From the IMG/VR virus record IMGVR_UViG_3300025085_000252, positions 1 through 20,236 of that record: 20,236 nucleotides of DNA, one strand, 5' to 3'. Positions 12,600 to 20,236 of the stretch are shown here, piece after piece. Below the pieces are notes generated by a model. That model made no database searches. It was not told where the DNA came from and was given only the letters and a program-made list of their open reading frames with translations. A program made the translations under genes and the position numbers. Source of the stretch: a virus. Position 1 is the stretch's first letter. Each line of letters opens with the position of its first letter.

Positions 12600-15500
12600 T
12601 TACTTTATGTTCACCCCATAAAGGTTAGATACAATATCGGTGACAGTATCCCTAGTAGTCTTAGGTGTAGTCTTTAGGAATCTGTCACCTGCTCCTTCTT
12701 GAGCAGACTTAACAGCCCTCTTAACTTTACCCTTGAAGTCATCAATATAGAACGCAGACCTGCCTTTACGGTGTACTTTGTTATGCTCTCTAACAGCACG
12801 TTCTATGTCTCTCATAGACCTTCTGTCTTTGAGTAAAGACGCCCTTACATACTGTTCTCTATAGCTAGCAACAATAGCCTTCTGGTTATCCACAAGACGT
12901 TTGGTAATCCTGACAGCATCGTTAGATCTTGTAGCTTCAGCAGGATAGAACCCTAACAACCTTGACACCAGAGTACCAACCCCAACATCCCTAACTACTG
13001 TGTAGCCACGCGAATTAACTACAGAACCTGATTGTAAATATACTGCTGTGTCTGTGATGTTTCGTAAACCTGCAATAGGGCTAGTCTGTCCAATGCGTAA
13101 CAACTCACCGCCAGTATCAGCTTTGAATGGTGCTCTAGCTAGATCAGTAGCCATAACAGCACCACCTGCCATCGCGCTATAAATAGGGCCAGCAAAATTC
13201 TTTAGCTCTTGGGGGATGCTCGCTCCATCTAAAAATACTCCAGTCATAGGTAGCAAATCACCTAGAGACAACCTGCTGGATACAGTAGCACCACCCATAA
13301 ACTGATCAAGGAGACCTCTATTCATCACCTGAGCAGCTAGGTCACTACCTGTTACATCCGATACAAATTGACCAAGGGCTAGCTCAGCGGGGGGTACTTT
13401 TAAATTAAACATCTGAGCTAATGTATCAATTAAATCCAGTAGGTCTTCCCCAAACGGCAAACCTTTTAGGCCCGCTACTGCCATTAATGCCCCTAAGTAG
13501 TAGGCTCTACCAGATGGAGGTAGCATACGCACCAACTGAGTAGCAATAACGGTAAACTGTTTATACATATAGATGTACTGCATCCAGTTACCTCTGGCAA
13601 TCTTGGGTCTATTGTACATGGCGTAATCGCCTTGAGATTTATTAACAACCTCAACAGCTTTTTCTTCCGCACCAAACAAATCTGGTTGGTCAATTTGACT
13701 TACCATATCCTCAGACTGCTGAGAATCAAACTGAAAATCAGAATCAGTGAGTGATGGATTCGCCGCCATCCTACGTCTTTTATCTAATCTATACGCAGCT
13801 AATGCAGTAATACGTCTGTTCATCTGCTCTGTGTAAGCAAATGGCACCATGTATTTTCTGGTTATCCCTGTCCAGTTTGCACTGTTGAAGAAGTTACCAC
13901 GCGCACTTCCTGCAAGTGAGTTAACTAGCGCAGCGTCAAGGATACCACGAGATGTTTGTCGTTCTAAGAACTGTGCTTCGTCCAGGGTCAAACCAAACGA
14001 TTTATATTTTCCGTCTGCTAATACGTTTGCTTTAATCCACGCTGGGTCAGCCCACTTTATATTCTTAAGATTAATCCCAGCTTTCGTAAGCTCTACAGTA
14101 GATGCCCCGAAACCAAACCCACCACCTGTTCCTGTCTTGTGGTTATACGTAGCCATATAAGGCATAGCCATAAGAGGTATAGATGTTAGGTTGATAAGAC
14201 CTGCGGCTATACTACCACCCAACTGCATCGCCACAGCTATAGCTTTCATAACTGAAAGCGGGCCTTTAGATAGCGCATCCTCAGCTGATATTGTTATGTC
14301 ATTAGATTGTGCGTAAAACTCTAGTACTTGTGCAGAAGTATTTCTGTTTCTTTCACCCTTACCACCAGTGGGAGTTATTGTCTGCTGCTCACCTTTAGAG
14401 TTTGTAAACGTAAAAGGTTTTGCGTTAATCTCACCAGACTCAACAAACATATGAGCAAGCATCTCAAATTTTTCTTGCTTTATTCTGGCGGCTTCTTTGT
14501 TACCTGTCTTTCTAGCGGCATCATACTCTTTGTACGCAGCTACCATTGTGTCTCTGCTACCGTTCCAGTTTTCTTCATCGGCCATAATCATGTCAATGTC
14601 AGACCGATGCTCGTTCTTTGCAGCTATAGCCGCTTGGCTTTCAAGATGCTCGGCTACAGATCTAATTATGTCAGGGTCAAACCCAGCTTGAAATTTTTTC
14701 TTTAGGTGGTTTCTTACTTTGTCATGTTGTTTAGATAAGGCTTCAACAATACGCTCACGCTCTGCCAACCCCAGATCAATACCTAGTGTGGTGAGTACGC
14801 TAGCAAATTCATCGTAGTTCATAGTCTGATTAGATGGAGTGCCAGCTGTGCTATCGCCTACCTGCGCAGTCATTACTACTTTGTCTACACCGCCTCGTTC
14901 ATTAGGTATTTCAAATACAGTCTGCCCTAAATCAGTGTTGTAACTATCAGCCATATCAATAAGTTTAGCTCTGTCGTCCATCTGGTAGTACGGAAACGCA
15001 GCGCTAAAAGAACTATTGATTTTAATCGGTTGCCCTCTAGTCACTTTACCGTCTGAGTCTACGACTGCTACATATGCTTGAAACCGTAGTTGTGAATTAC
15101 CGCTACGTGAGAAAGGAACGTATGCATCATATGCTGTCTGCTTAGCCATGACATTGGCGTTGATAAGTTGAGTGTCAGTAAATACCTGATCTTTAAGAGG
15201 TTGCTGGATTTTCTTCATAACAACTTTGTCAGTAAATACGTTGCCTCCACTCTGATCTTTATAGGCTCGCATACGATCTAAGCCGTCTAATATACTAGTC
15301 AGATCTATAGGGTTTTGTTTACCTGCATCAGTTCTGTTGTAAGCAAGTATTGCATTGATAGCTTTCTGTGAACTGCCATTAACATTATCATCAGCCTTCA
15401 TATTCCTAAGGTCTGCTGACGCCTCTGACTGCCACAAAGCCCTAGTCACGCCATTGATAAAATCCTCACCCTGCTGCAATGTCTTTGCGTTTACTCTATA

Positions 15501-18500
15501 TCTGCCGTTGTTTTCTTTCGGCCCCATCTGATATATCTTCTGGAACGCCTCGGATAACTCTTTGAACACATCAAGGTCTTGGTCTGTTACCTGAGAACTG
15601 ATCTTGCTCATAGCAGCTATGTTACCATCAAACATTTTGCTGGCTGCTATGTATTTACCTAGCGCAACTTTAGCAGAAGCTTTATTAACACCCTTACGCA
15701 AGTCTACATACGCTTTGTATATTGCCTTGTGGCGCTCATTGTTAGGATCAAACCCGCCTTCAACGTTGTAAGTTTTTTCGTTTACACCACCTTCTAAATA
15801 GTCAATACCGCCAGCTATCTCCTCCATAGAAAGAGTAGCGTTGTCTATATAAAAATCTAGCGCAGCATCATTAATCATTGGCTTGCCTGAGACAGCATCT
15901 TTAATGATTATATCTGGCGCGTTTCGTACGTCAGCTTCGGTTACACGCTGGGCAAAGTAAGCATTACTATACGCAAGTAAATCACTTACTATTTTTTTCT
16001 CTGCTTTGCTTAGCCCAGTGCCAAGCCCCCAGTAATCTGCCTTAGTAGCACTAGCAGTTATCTCGTCTAACTCAGACAGAATTGCTCTAGCAGTAGCTGC
16101 CTGACGCCTAAAGACATCAAACATCTTCATAACACCTAAGCTACGCTGGGCTATGTTGTCTAATGTTTGTAACTGTTCAGCTGCTCTACCTAAAAGATCA
16201 CCAACATTTTTACGTTTAGACAAAAATTTATTTAGACCTTGCGACAACCCAGGGGTGGGTATTTGAAATGCACCCGAAGTCATATCAACAAACGTGGCAG
16301 AGAACCTACCCACCTCAGAGTTGTTTAGTTCTTCTATGTTTGCTGCTAGTTGGTCTGGTGATACATAGCCAGGGATCTCACCGTTACGTACATAACGTCT
16401 CAACTGGTTGACGTAATACGCAGCACCATCATGATCGAAAGGTATGCCTATCTTCTGCAAAAACTTTTTGATAGGTTGCCATATTCTATTAAGGACATTG
16501 GTATCTACGTAAGCTACGTGGTCAGCTAATGCTTCTTCGATAGCTTCAAGTTTACCAATCCCGTGGACTGCCATGTACCTATCGGTTACAGCCCTTATAT
16601 GACTGCTAGTATTATATATGTTTTCCAGCACACTTTTAAGCTGAGACTTCGGTACTATTGATCGCAATCCAAAGTGACCCATTGCTTCGTGGGCTAAGGT
16701 AAATTTCAGATGGGTATCGTTCTGTATAAAATCACTAAACAATACAACATCAGGGCCAATAGAATAACCCGATGCATTGATGCTAGCAAAGTCTGGCCTG
16801 TCTTTTATAATCTTAGCGTAAAGTTCAGGATTAACATTTTGTAAGTCTGCTGAATTTTTAGCTATAGTTACGTTTGGTTTGATAGCAAACTTACTAAGAA
16901 TCTTATTCAGTGTGGCTTTGAACTTAAGAGGATCCATAGGTGTAGATGGTTTGTCGTTATCGTACCGTAAATAGTTACCTTCAGGATCTTCCAACTGCTC
17001 CAATACACTCCGATTATCTACAACATACCCAGACTCTTTAGCATCATCCATCTGCTGGGCTGCTTTTTTAGCTTTAGCAGCGTCAATTTCTTTTTGTGCT
17101 TTAGTTAGCTTAGCCTCATCTTTGAGATCCGTCTTAGCTTTACGTTCTTGAGTGCGAGCTTCTTTCAGAGTCTTAGGATTAAGAACAAATGTCTCGCCGC
17201 GTTGTTGTAGTTTTAGCTTGCCGTTAGTGTCAAAGTAATCAGCTAGGGGTACACCATTAAACAAGAACGTCATATCTGGCTTCACACCAAACGCACCTTT
17301 AGCAGAGCGTTCTACCCTAAGTACTGACTTGTCATCTTTACTCTGTAGTTTACTTGGTAGTGATTCAAGCTGGATAGATAAACGTTGTGCCTGTGCTTTA
17401 GCACCTGTTTGTTTGTCACTATATGTAGCTTTAGTTGTCGCCCCAGCGCGAGACAGTTCTTGTTCATTAAGTATAATATCTCCAGCTGATTTATCAGCTA
17501 TAGCTTTATCAGCTTGTACTACTCTGGATAGTCCAGGGATGCCTTCTTTCTCTAATCCCTTTTGTATATCAGGCATAATGTCTAATCGTTTTGCGTACTT
17601 ATACCAAGTTGGTTGCCCAGTAAAAGTAAGCTGATCAGTTGCACCAAGGGTAACTATGTTATCAATCGCTATTTCCCTTACAGCAGACGCAGGGCCAAGC
17701 GGAACATTAAGTAAGAAACTACCAACGCGCTTCTGCACAGCTGGTGAGGCTGCACCTTGTGCAAACGCTATATCTATAAGAGTACCTAAGACACCTGGCA
17801 TCTCAGTAGCCGTAGCGTTTATATAATTATCTTGTAGTATCTGCGCTTGTGTACCTTCTGGTAACGATTCAAGGATAGCTTGGTCAGTCCAAACACTAGC
17901 CATCTCTTCAGCTGTCATAGCACTAAATATCTTGACGGCTTTCTGATCTGTAATATCAGCTAGGGAAGGTGAATCAGGATATGGTTTGTTGTCATCCCAC
18001 ATCTCTGCAGGAGTTTTACTTGCAGCAGGTTTCTTCACAACAGGTTTAGGTGTCTCTGTCGCTGGCTCAGGTTGAGCGACTACAGCAGGAGCAACCTTTG
18101 CTTTGCCGCGCTTTAGTGTTGCTACCTTGGGCTTACTCTGCGGCTCAGCTTGAACACTTTGTTCCTCGACTTTTTCTTTTTTGAGGCTTTTGTTTTTAGT
18201 ACGTACCCTGGGGGTTTCTTGTACTTCTTCTCCCACTCTTTCGCCATCTTGGGTTTGTTCTTGTGCATCCACCTGCGTTGGCTCTGGCTCTTGAACGGCA
18301 TCTGGCTCCTCCTTCTTCGCCCCTTTCTTTAGTTTGTCTGCTTTAGTTTGTGCTTTTACTGCACGATCTTGTGCTCTTTTTATAGGGGCATTTATAGTAG
18401 TGAAGTCACCATCAAAATATTCAGTTGCTTTTGTTACAATCCTACCAATACCAATGGGGAATGTTTTACGATCAACGACTAGATCAGGTGCTTGCTCTAC

Positions 18501-20236
18501 TGACTCTAGCAATGCAGAAAGATTTGGTGCTACCTGAGATGCCTGCTCTGGGTTAGCCAACCTAAGTACGTTGAACTCAGCGATAAGCTCTTCTGGTGAC
18601 AGCAGATAGTTAAAAAATTCGTTGTCTAGTTTCTTACCATCGGCAATAGCTTGTAATACTGTGGCTCGTAAGTCTGGATACAGCAGGTTTTCTATGGCTT
18701 GCAACTCTGCCAGCACAGCAGGATTATCGTTAATCTCACCAGCTAATAATGAGTGTGATGCATGCCCTAACTCATGCGCAACTATATTGGGGAACACAGG
18801 CTGTGCAGAAGTATATTTACCAGCTAGAACTATACCACCGTTGTGGTGTGCACCTGTAAAGTTAGTAAAGTTCCTAGCTACTTTTATCTTTTTAATAGCT
18901 TCAGCATATCTATCTAGAACAAATTGAGGTAGCAAGTTCAACCGTACACCCTGGGTGTAGTTGATAGTATCAAATTTCTTTTGCCGTTTGTCAGGATCAA
19001 CAATGTTGTCCTCTTGTTTACCACCTGAAATTTGCTGCTTACTTTTAACAGTAGCAGCTATGTCTTTTTTATTTCGCCTGTTCTCAAGCTGTGGCGATGT
19101 GGACGGAGCAAACTCTGTCTCTGGTTGTGGTATGTTATCAGTCAGTGGCTTAGCAGGAGGCTTCTGCTTTGGCGCTTCCTGTGGTGTAAATAGAGGTAGT
19201 TGTACCTCCCTAGGTGGTGGGGTTGTTACTGTCTCTGGCTCAACATCAAGCGCTAAATCCAGTTGGTTTGGGTCTGGTGCAGGTGGTCTACCTGGTGGCA
19301 TTGGTGTAGGTACAACAGCAGTTGAATCAGATATAGGTGTACCAAAGTTTTGGTTGACTTCATTTAATGTGGTAACTGGAGGTGTTACGTTTAATGCACC
19401 TTGTGGTTGCTGTTCAGTCCCTGGAATAAACGCACCTTCAATGCTGACAGGCTGATCCATAGGATCAAATACCTGTGGGTTAGGATCAACTACCCCTTCA
19501 GGATTAACAGTAAAGTCAGGATCTTCGATAGTAGCTACAGCAAAAGGTCTATTGTCTTCTAGTGTAGGCTCTTGAAACTCTAATTGATTAACTGGAGTTA
19601 TAGTAAACGCTGGATCTGTTGGGCCTCCTCCCATAGGCGTAGGTTCTACAGGATCTGTAGGGACTAATGCGCCACCCTGCTGTGGCTCCTCAGGGTTAAG
19701 CAGGTCAGCCTCTTGCCCTTTGCGTAGTCCACTTAACCCAGAGATTGGGCCACCAACTGCGGCACCCGCAGCTATAGAGTTGATAAGGCGTATACCGTTA
19801 TCTACTGTAAACGCTTCTCGGTCAGATGTAGCAGCATCCAGACCAATAACAGTAGATTCTTGAAAACCTTCTGTTATACCTTCTGCAACTGCACCTGTGC
19901 CTGTTGCTTTCGCCACACGCTTAAGCATACTAGCTGTGGCAGACGGATTAAAAAATTTACTGGCTACAAAATACTCTGAGAAAGTCTCAGCCGCAGCGTA
20001 CGGTATACCTCCAGCTAACGCAGTAAGACGTTGTGCTGTACCTGGAACTTCTCCTTCTGCGTTCTCAAGCATTTCAAGATATATATCGCTAACACCAGTT
20101 CTAAAGTTATTTAGTGACCCAGCGATTACTGCCCCTGTACCTGCAATAAGTTTTTTCTCTGCGTTAGATAAAGCCTCACCCGCCCGCTTCTTGACAACAG
20201 CATCCATAAGTTTTTTCTTAAATGCCGTCTTACCAA
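12600..20236 (-). CDS. Giant phage polyvalent / internal virion protein with two metallopeptidase-like sites, N-terminus beyond the window
   Basis: The frame runs from the right edge to a stop at 12600-12602; from the ATG at 20207 it has 2535 residues. The nine codons before that ATG (GKTAFKKKL) are open and no ribosome site is seen, so the true start lies outside. Residue numbers are from that ATG. Hydrophobic, glycine-rich helices at 20-34 and 141-160; Pro-rich linker 165-375; HELGH site at 478-482; Lys/Glu/Pro-rich linker 610-735; alpha-rich region 740-1010; charged coiled coil 1010-1060; HEAMGH site at 1173-1178; long helical region; hydrophobic segment about 1985-2020; conserved C-terminal module to 2535. 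This matches the large polyvalent proteins of tailed phages, thought to be packaged and ejected with the DNA. Expected roles are channel formation and early host modification. Strand and size fit a late structural gene. Confidence 0.9.
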   Translation of the reverse strand, partial: GKTAFKKKLMDAVVKKRAGEALSNAEKKLIAGTGAVIAGSLNNFRTGVSDIYLEMLENAEGEVPGTAQRLTALAGGIPYAAAETFSEYFVASKFFNPSATASMLKRVAKATGTGAVAEGITEGFQESTVIGLDAATSDREAFTVDNGIRLINSIAAGAAVGGPISGLSGLRKGQEADLLNPEEPQQGGALVPTDPVEPTPMGGGPTDPAFTITPVNQLEFQEPTLEDNRPFAVATIEDPDFTVNPEGVVDPNPQVFDPMDQPVSIEGAFIPGTEQQPQGALNVTPPVTTLNEVNQNFGTPISDSTAVVPTPMPPGRPPAPDPNQLDLALDVEPETVTTPPPREVQLPLFTPQEAPKQKPPAKPLTDNIPQPETEFAPSTSPQLENRRNKKDIAATVKSKQQISGGKQEDNIVDPDKRQKKFDTINYTQGVRLNLLPQFVLDRYAEAIKKIKVARNFTNFTGAHHNGGIVLAGKYTSAQPVFPNIVAHELGHASHSLLAGEINDNPAVLAELQAIENLLYPDLRATVLQAIADGKKLDNEFFNYLLSPEELIAEFNVLRLANPEQASQVAPNLSALLESVEQAPDLVVDRKTFPIGIGRIVTKATEYFDGDFTTINAPIKRAQDRAVKAQTKADKLKKGAKKEEPDAVQEPEPTQVDAQEQTQDGERVGEEVQETPRVRTKNKSLKKEKVEEQSVQAEPQSKPKVATLKRGKAKVAPAVVAQPEPATETPKPVVKKPAASKTPAEMWDDNKPYPDSPSLADITDQKAVKIFSAMTAEEMASVWTDQAILESLPEGTQAQILQDNYINATATEMPGVLGTLIDIAFAQGAASPAVQKRVGSFLLNVPLGPASAVREIAIDNIVTLGATDQLTFTGQPTWYKYAKRLDIMPDIQKGLEKEGIPGLSRVVQADKAIADKSAGDIILNEQELSRAGATTKATYSDKQTGAKAQAQRLSIQLESLPSKLQSKDDKSVLRVERSAKGAFGVKPDMTFLFNGVPLADYFDTNGKLKLQQRGETFVLNPKTLKEARTQERKAKTDLKDEAKLTKAQKEIDAAKAKKAAQQMDDAKESGYVVDNRSVLEQLEDPEGNYLRYDNDKPSTPMDPLKFKATLNKILSKFAIKPNVTIAKNSADLQNVNPELYAKIIKDRPDFASINASGYSIGPDVVLFSDFIQNDTHLKFTLAHEAMGHFGLRSIVPKSQLKSVLENIYNTSSHIRAVTDRYMAVHGIGKLEAIEEALADHVAYVDTNVLNRIWQPIKKFLQKIGIPFDHDGAAYYVNQLRRYVRNGEIPGYVSPDQLAANIEELNNSEVGRFSATFVDMTSGAFQIPTPGLSQGLNKFLSKRKNVGDLLGRAAEQLQTLDNIAQRSLGVMKMFDVFRRQAATARAILSELDEITASATKADYWGLGTGLSKAEKKIVSDLLAYSNAYFAQRVTEADVRNAPDIIIKDAVSGKPMINDAALDFYIDNATLSMEEIAGGIDYLEGGVNEKTYNVEGGFDPNNERHKAIYKAYVDLRKGVNKASAKVALGKYIAASKMFDGNIAAMSKISSQVTDQDLDVFKELSEAFQKIYQMGPKENNGRYRVNAKTLQQGEDFINGVTRALWQSEASADLRNMKADDNVNGSSQKAINAILAYNRTDAGKQNPIDLTSILDGLDRMRAYKDQSGGNVFTDKVVMKKIQQPLKDQVFTDTQLINANVMAKQTAYDAYVPFSRSGNSQLRFQAYVAVVDSDGKVTRGQPIKINSSFSAAFPYYQMDDRAKLIDMADSYNTDLGQTVFEIPNERGGVDKVVMTAQVGDSTAGTPSNQTMNYDEFASVLTTLGIDLGLAERERIVEALSKQHDKVRNHLKKKFQAGFDPDIIRSVAEHLESQAAIAAKNEHRSDIDMIMADEENWNGSRDTMVAAYKEYDAARKTGNKEAARIKQEKFEMLAHMFVESGEINAKPFTFTNSKGEQQTITPTGGKGERNRNTSAQVLEFYAQSNDITISAEDALSKGPLSVMKAIAVAMQLGGSIAAGLINLTSIPLMAMPYMATYNHKTGTGGGFGFGASTVELTKAGINLKNIKWADPAWIKANVLADGKYKSFGLTLDEAQFLERQTSRGILDAALVNSLAGSARGNFFNSANWTGITRKYMVPFAYTEQMNRRITALAAYRLDKRRRMAANPSLTDSDFQFDSQQSEDMVSQIDQPDLFGAEEKAVEVVNKSQGDYAMYNRPKIARGNWMQYIYMYKQFTVIATQLVRMLPPSGRAYYLGALMAVAGLKGLPFGEDLLDLIDTLAQMFNLKVPPAELALGQFVSDVTGSDLAAQVMNRGLLDQFMGGATVSSRLSLGDLLPMTGVFLDGASIPQELKNFAGPIYSAMAGGAVMATDLARAPFKADTGGELLRIGQTSPIAGLRNITDTAVYLQSGSVVNSRGYTVVRDVGVGTLVSRLLGFYPAEATRSNDAVRITKRLVDNQKAIVASYREQYVRASLLKDRRSMRDIERAVREHNKVHRKGRSAFYIDDFKGKVKRAVKSAQEGAGDRFLKTTPKTTRDTVTDIVSNLYGVNIK
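12603..12623. terminator. Weak hairpin at the convergent gene ends
   Basis: CTTTATG (12603-12609) pairs with CATAAAG (12617-12623) around a seven-base loop, within the last codons of the minus-strand giant gene. On the minus strand it is followed by TAATTATA. It is AT-rich and only 7 pairs, so it is a poor terminator candidate, listed because no other lies between the convergent genes. Confidence 0.2.
12603..14345 (-). other. Conserved C-terminal module (LPD38-like) of the giant protein
   Basis: About residues 1955-2535. Landmarks are VLEFYAQSNDITISAEDALS, a hydrophobic segment at 1985-2020, MQYIYMYKQF, AGLKGLPFGEDLLDLIDTL, LLPMTGVF and LLGFYPAEATRSNDAVR, then a basic tail. The LPFxEDLxDLIDT and LLGFxPxxAT signatures recur at the C-terminus of large phage proteins; the assignment to large polyvalent protein-associated domain 38 is from memory. 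Confidence 0.5.
16383..16925 (-). other. Second metallopeptidase-like domain (HExxxH) of the giant protein
   Basis: About residues 1095-1275. TLAHEAMGHFGLRSIV carries HExxxH (His1173, Glu1174, His1178), one residue longer than the classical motif, with EAIEEALADHVAY (1221-1233) about 45 residues on as third-ligand candidate. The 'HExxGHxGLR' form is one I associate with phage polyvalent proteins. Confidence 0.6.
18528..18890 (-). other. First zinc-metallopeptidase-like domain (HELGH) of the giant protein
   Basis: About residues 440-560. NIVAHELGHASHSLL holds HExxH (His478, Glu479, His482), and about 60 residues later SPEELIAEF offers Glu540 or Glu544 as third ligand, a gluzincin-like layout. 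Upstream TGAHHNGGIVLAGKY resembles the edge strand before the active-site helix. An active zinc protease is plausible; substrate unknown. Confidence 0.65.
19083..19715 (-). other. Pro-rich low-complexity linker of the giant protein
   Basis: About residues 165-375 are rich in Pro, Gln, Thr, Asp and Glu (for example PTPMPPGRPPAPDPNQL). There is no predicted fold; it separates the glycine-rich hydrophobic N-terminal part from the first peptidase-like site. Such flexible stretches would help passage through a narrow portal. Confidence 0.7.

Follow-up and report, generated by a model that had tools for sequence, protein, structure and literature searches.

When a phage injects a giant protein carrying zincin-type metallopeptidase domains, do these cut the phage's own chain or the proteins of the host? 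The 2017 survey of polyvalent proteins left this question open (Iyer et al. 2017; PMC5512222), and the locus analysed here offers a natural comparison for it: a putative enzyme found in every sampled relative lies beside another that is present or absent among near-identical siblings, and this contrast between resident and optional gives an indication of the role for which each domain should be assayed. The window, namely the whole stretch of 20,236 nucleotides corresponding to positions 1 to 20,236 of the IMG/VR record IMGVR_UViG_3300025085_000252, carries replication genes on its plus strand, for a family A DNA polymerase, a helicase, an exonuclease, a gp2.5-like protein and a primase/helicase-like protein. 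The rest of the phage and its relative encode a T7-like head-tail connector, a major head protein, tail fibres, a holin, an endolysin and an internal virion protein. The giant gene closes the late block, after those for the holin, the endolysin and the internal virion protein (the last matched with E 4e-106). Because of this gene order and of the family to which the product belongs, its C-terminus scoring 164.7 bits against the NCBIfam model NF032893 (PLxRFG 'tail-700'; curated cut-off 100), a role in the virion or in ejection is likely: this is probably the giant protein of a marine short-tailed phage, which would be injected with its DNA. Five of seven related records also score above the cut-off of NF032893.

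The open reading frame runs off the edge of the window, and an identical IMG/VR contig, L004 (100% identity over the 947 residues compared), supplies 254 further N-terminal residues, so that the complete length of the protein is 2798 residues, not 2544 (table 1). Residues are numbered here from the first in-window ATG, at position 20207 of the minus strand; full-length numbering is obtained by adding 263. One ortholog, of 2825 residues, shows 66% identity along the whole length, and the entry closest to the domain called MP2 in a Foldseek search of the viral library, A0A516LI90, is 100% identical to the query; hence, the giant protein is already present in UniProt. Its organization is modular, with a variable middle region, and a hydrophobic segment (full-length residues 221-239) lies just beyond the window edge. 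No further enzyme domain (methylase, ART, lysozyme, etc.) was found in the window protein, and none recurs in 51 middle regions of the family. Scanning genomes for relatives returned only distant C-terminal ones, in mixed bacterial assemblies, with no clear host.

Table 1. Features of the giant gene, in window coordinates, from the N-terminal to the C-terminal end of the product
Feature	Position	Strand	Remarks
Giant open reading frame	12600..20234	-	Closes the late operon; 2798 aa in full, of which 2544 aa in the window
N-terminal framework	19740..20234	-	Conserved; in-window part
Linker 1	19083..19715	-	Pro/Thr/Glu-rich low complexity, evolving fast
MP1, cassette zincin-like domain	18375..19046	-	Predicted helix, three strands, HELGH helix, Glu helix
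HELGH motif of MP1	18762..18776	-	First and last base of five codons
EELIAE, conserved Glu helix of MP1	18576..18593	-	Candidate third zinc ligand
Linker 2	18003..18371	-	Charged low complexity; includes a segment kept even in siblings without MP1
Variable region, linker 2 to MP2	17049..18002	-	C-terminal end is a charged helix, 17055-17174
MP2, the family's resident zincin-like domain	16275..16967	-	Core pLDDT above 90
HEAMGH (HExxxH) motif of MP2	16674..16691	-	
EEALAD, conserved Glu helix of MP2	16521..16538	-	Candidate third zinc ligand
C-terminal module	12603..16277	-	~1200 aa, conserved; includes the NF032893 'tail-700' PLxRFG region (best stretch 12762-13670) and a hydrophobic segment (14166-14258)

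Two metallopeptidase-like motifs had previously been read from the sequence, and their positions are exact when counted from the ATG given above: HELGH at residues 478-482, within MP1, and HEAMGH at residues 1173-1178, within MP2. They are the sole HExxH and the sole HExxxH of the frame. The low-complexity linkers noted at residues 165-375 and 610-735 are present, and the Glu-rich helices described downstream of the motifs correspond to predicted helices bearing conserved glutamates, EELIAE at 61 residues and EEALAD at 51 residues from the first His of the respective motif. The separation between the two motifs, described as a low-complexity linker followed by a charged coiled coil, does contain such a linker and a charged helix (around residues 1020-1060), but also about 250 residues of ordinary sequence (around 745-1010) that the description had omitted.

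HExxH also occurs in proteins that are not peptidases. Structure prediction, which the sequence-only reading had proposed as a check on its two sites, was carried out with AlphaFold2 from the family alignments, for MP1 (pLDDT 82, pTM 0.83) and for MP2 (pLDDT 77, rising above 90 in the core; pTM 0.65). In both models the expected zincin elements follow one another in the expected order: a helix and strands come first, then the helix that bears the motif, and further on another helix, carrying the conserved glutamates. The proposed check is thereby answered in part, as regards the order of elements. At the level of secondary structure only, the models also present the features that characterize polyvalent zincins: a three-stranded sheet, an N-terminal helix, the HExxH or HExxxH helix and a Glu-bearing helix. 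When MP1 and MP2 were compared with each other by hhalign, the hairpin and the motif helix could be aligned (probability 77%, P 2e-5), with the one-residue gap falling exactly within the motif, HE-LGH versus HEAMGH. The best Foldseek matches of MP2 in the viral library, beyond itself, were phage chains annotated as 'large polyvalent protein' (E down to 1e-7). Searches of solved structures (PDB) gave no significant match to either domain, and nothing above curated cut-offs was found for the two zincins in Pfam (including its zincin families), PHROGs, NCBIfam and PADLOC; Lethal-factor/Certhrax, PPEP and MATCAP were considered as fold relatives, their matches being too weak for use. Sequence and models support the original proposal that a single giant polyvalent protein of virion type carries two metallopeptidase-like domains distinct from each other.

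How are these domains distributed among relatives? Because motif-seeded scans of viral contigs partly build in the conservation of the motif, a second sample was collected by seeding on the C-terminal region only. All 54 giants of this sample with enough upstream sequence have the MP2 motif, in the form HE[TAVS][LMI]GH, and AxEE follows downstream in 48 of 48 distinct members, 50-52 residues after the first His in 47 of them. Judging from these sequences, MP2 is the resident, putative enzyme of the family, found in every relative examined. MP1, in contrast, is present in 4 of the 54 C-terminus-seeded giants. Protein L021, which has it, and its sibling L034, which has not, share 87% identity over the N-terminal region and 81-82% over the linkers, rising to 95-98% from the linkers to the end; L120 and L121 likewise lack MP1, and both linkers are retained in the MP1-minus proteins.

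MP1 was further characterized from 19 distinct, motif-seeded sequences, in which HE[LF]GHxxH, LxPxxR and YLxSxxE(L/I)xAE are conserved. The domain is found in giants of other, unrelated frameworks, where it is in most cases accompanied by another HExxH or HExxxH motif, different from its own. A diverged version occurs in MuF minor head proteins of phages of Stenotrophomonas and Xanthomonas. That the MP1s of the present framework form one clade is rejected by an AU test (p 0.027, with an MP1 tree that is weakly resolved), which suggests exchange of MP1 between frameworks. By all these comparisons of sequence, MP1 is an optional, swappable cassette lying between two linkers. One 3720-aa giant (L030, 5118-16277) has MP1, a HESGH motif and a third motif, HEGRH, in surroundings that appeared ParB-like by eye.

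Phage giants with multiple zincins, as well as the HExxxH variant, have been known since 2017. Iyer et al. found one to five zincins in ~36% of polyvalent proteins, with more than one copy in ~8% of these, described one zincin set that uses HEXXXH, its helix being possibly bent, and proposed either processing or effector roles (PMC5512222). The present protein is similarly a giant multidomain phage chain in which zincins are spaced by other domains, with more than one per chain and an HExxxH variant among them; what it adds is a clean split within one family, whose HExxxH domain is resident and invariant and whose HELGH cassette is optional.

In layout, the protein resembles by analogy the virion RNA polymerase of N4 (gp50, Schitoviridae; PMC12633501), which is also a giant with a membrane-capable N-terminus and flexible linkers, and is ejected. 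According to the cryo-EM preprint on N4, an HExxH domain precedes a large helical module and flexible linkers let the chain through the tail, the chemistry of that domain being left open (PMC12633501). The motif lies 1362 residues from the C-terminus in MP2 and 1272 in N4, where a helical module follows it; the N4 motif is, however, a classical HExxH. The modules themselves have no detectable homology: Pfam, PHROGs and NCBIfam reveal no T7-like RNA polymerase module in the giant protein, and relationship with the C1-C2 C-terminal domain of the N4 polymerase, which occupies a similar slot, was rejected at an hhalign probability of only 0.5%.

Which mechanism would account for a resident and an optional zincin in the same chain? 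The reading that we favor, with reasonable if not high confidence, is that of a giant polyvalent internal-virion (ejection) protein from a podovirus of ~54 kb, composed of a framework plus the MP1 cassette. The framework would join a membrane-capable N-terminus and the resident zincin MP2 to the PLxRFG C-terminus of ~1200 residues, and MP1 would be a second, accessory zincin inserted between two disordered linkers. Packaged intact, the chain would thread the tail ahead of the DNA, with its domains strung on flexible linkers, and would then refold inside the host. MP2 would serve as the module's conserved peptidase, its most likely target being either the giant chain or a partner in ejection, whose cleavage would release domains or activate them, and MP1 would act as an optional protease effector against host, possibly defence, proteins. 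To the anatomy, conservation and cassette behaviour that we observe, this adds the virion location, ejection, zinc binding, proteolysis and substrates that we infer. A bolder version, which we regard as speculative, would see in MP2 a new small peptidase family, its M49-like site forming the invariant catalytic heart of many phage ejection proteins and activating the injected chain at every infection, with MP1 as an interchangeable anti-host protease.

Could both zincins be host-directed effectors instead, for example against defence proteins, with neither acting on the phage chain? This would fit the theory of polyvalent proteins (PMC5512222), as well as the occurrence of MP1-like domains in MuF fusions ending in an ADP-ribosyltransferase-like domain. 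The relevant case is the MuF minor head protein of AXL_1, the sole such fusion examined, which shares with other MuF proteins of Bradleyvirinae phages an MP1-like HELGHxxH ... SPxELxAE domain, but differs from the present protein in being a MuF fusion that adjoins the portal and has the ADP-ribosyltransferase-like domain at its end. MP2, however, shows no variation and is in all cases linked to the C-terminal module, which points to a core function more than to a host-specific one, and we consider it improbable that both domains are directed against the host.

Processing of the chain into several virion proteins within the two linkers had been suggested by the sequence-only reading; one or both zincins would cut there during assembly, leaving several mature proteins per virion. 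Iyer et al. propose autoprocessing for DdrB of phage P1 and, more generally, that multidomain polypeptides are processed (PMC5512222). The linkers, moreover, are long and presumably accessible, and linker 2 has a segment conserved in six relatives (EEPDAVQEPE...DGERVGEEVQ, window 18003-18371), with a much less conserved C-terminal flank; this segment may mark a joint of recombination, or may itself be functional. Nevertheless, both linkers persist in siblings without MP1, linker 1 diverges faster than the domains, no cleavage site in common emerged on inspection by eye, and the N4 virion RNA polymerase, the best-studied analogue and one with a zincin-type motif, is reported to be packaged unprocessed (PMC5512222). 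Processing in the linkers is not supported, because they behave as cassette joints, and it appears doubtful to us.

Returning to the favored reading, in which both zincins would be active, the earlier suggestion of one active and one structural site requires consideration. In one form, MP2 would be a non-catalytic zinc fold with a structural or regulatory role, leaving MP1 as the only active domain, as might be thought from the non-classical spacing of HExxxH and from the search of solved structures, which yielded no relative of MP2. Yet neither domain varies in its two His or in its catalytic Glu, and the Glu of HE, which is not a zinc ligand, is conserved in 54/54 MP2 sequences. The additional residue of the second motif, correctly noticed from the start, is real and would be compatible with an active zinc peptidase, since M49 peptidases use HExxGH. 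The signature of M49 dipeptidyl peptidase III, an active enzyme type, is HEXXGH followed by EEXR(K)AE(D) 22-55 residues downstream (PMC5667867), and MP2 has HExxGH followed by EExxAD at similar spacing. Given this conservation of catalytic residues in MP1 and MP2, we disfavor a purely structural role for MP2 as quite unlikely. The resemblance with M49 does not extend further, for MP2 has ~230 aa and mostly Leu/Met/Val where M49 has the Arg/Lys of EEXR(K)AE(D); M49 membership was rejected since the signature is alike but PF03571 gave nothing even with E values of up to 10 allowed, and there is no PDB fold match. Convergence of the zinc-site signature is the default explanation, because no profile or fold match supports kinship. 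Finally, that both motifs are chance matches within a structural protein, as one could argue from the sequence libraries missing MP1 and MP2, is hardly credible, considering that 5000 shuffles of the protein gave HExxH in 0.9%, HExxxH in 1.0% and both together in 0.04%, that motif and downstream Glu are kept in distant relatives, and that both domains are modelled confidently.

Other large phage proteins show variations on this theme. F116p60 of Pseudomonas phage F116 is of the same NF032893 PLxRFG kind and likewise has two HExxH motifs, but with 1649 aa it is the shorter protein, and neither the MP1 nor the MP2 profile matches its zincin regions. In the PLxRFG giants L191 (5563-10512, F116p60), L192 (4933-10617) and L193 (2406-12524), HExxH or HExxxH motifs lie 1126-1395 residues before the C-terminus, in a slot similar to that of MP2, without matching the MP2 profile. 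The large virion-type protein of KPP25 was discarded as a relative, for it has a HESMH motif but no match to either profile. In the giant frames of L099-L103 and L105-L106, MP2 is interrupted, ~170-215 extra residues separating its HExxxH helix from its EE helix. The Bacteroides phages L007 and L013 have single genes of ~16 kb (over 5000 aa) adjoining the portal, with an MP2-like HEAVAH domain; BKO1-TP3 also has a helicase-like HEYKH region.
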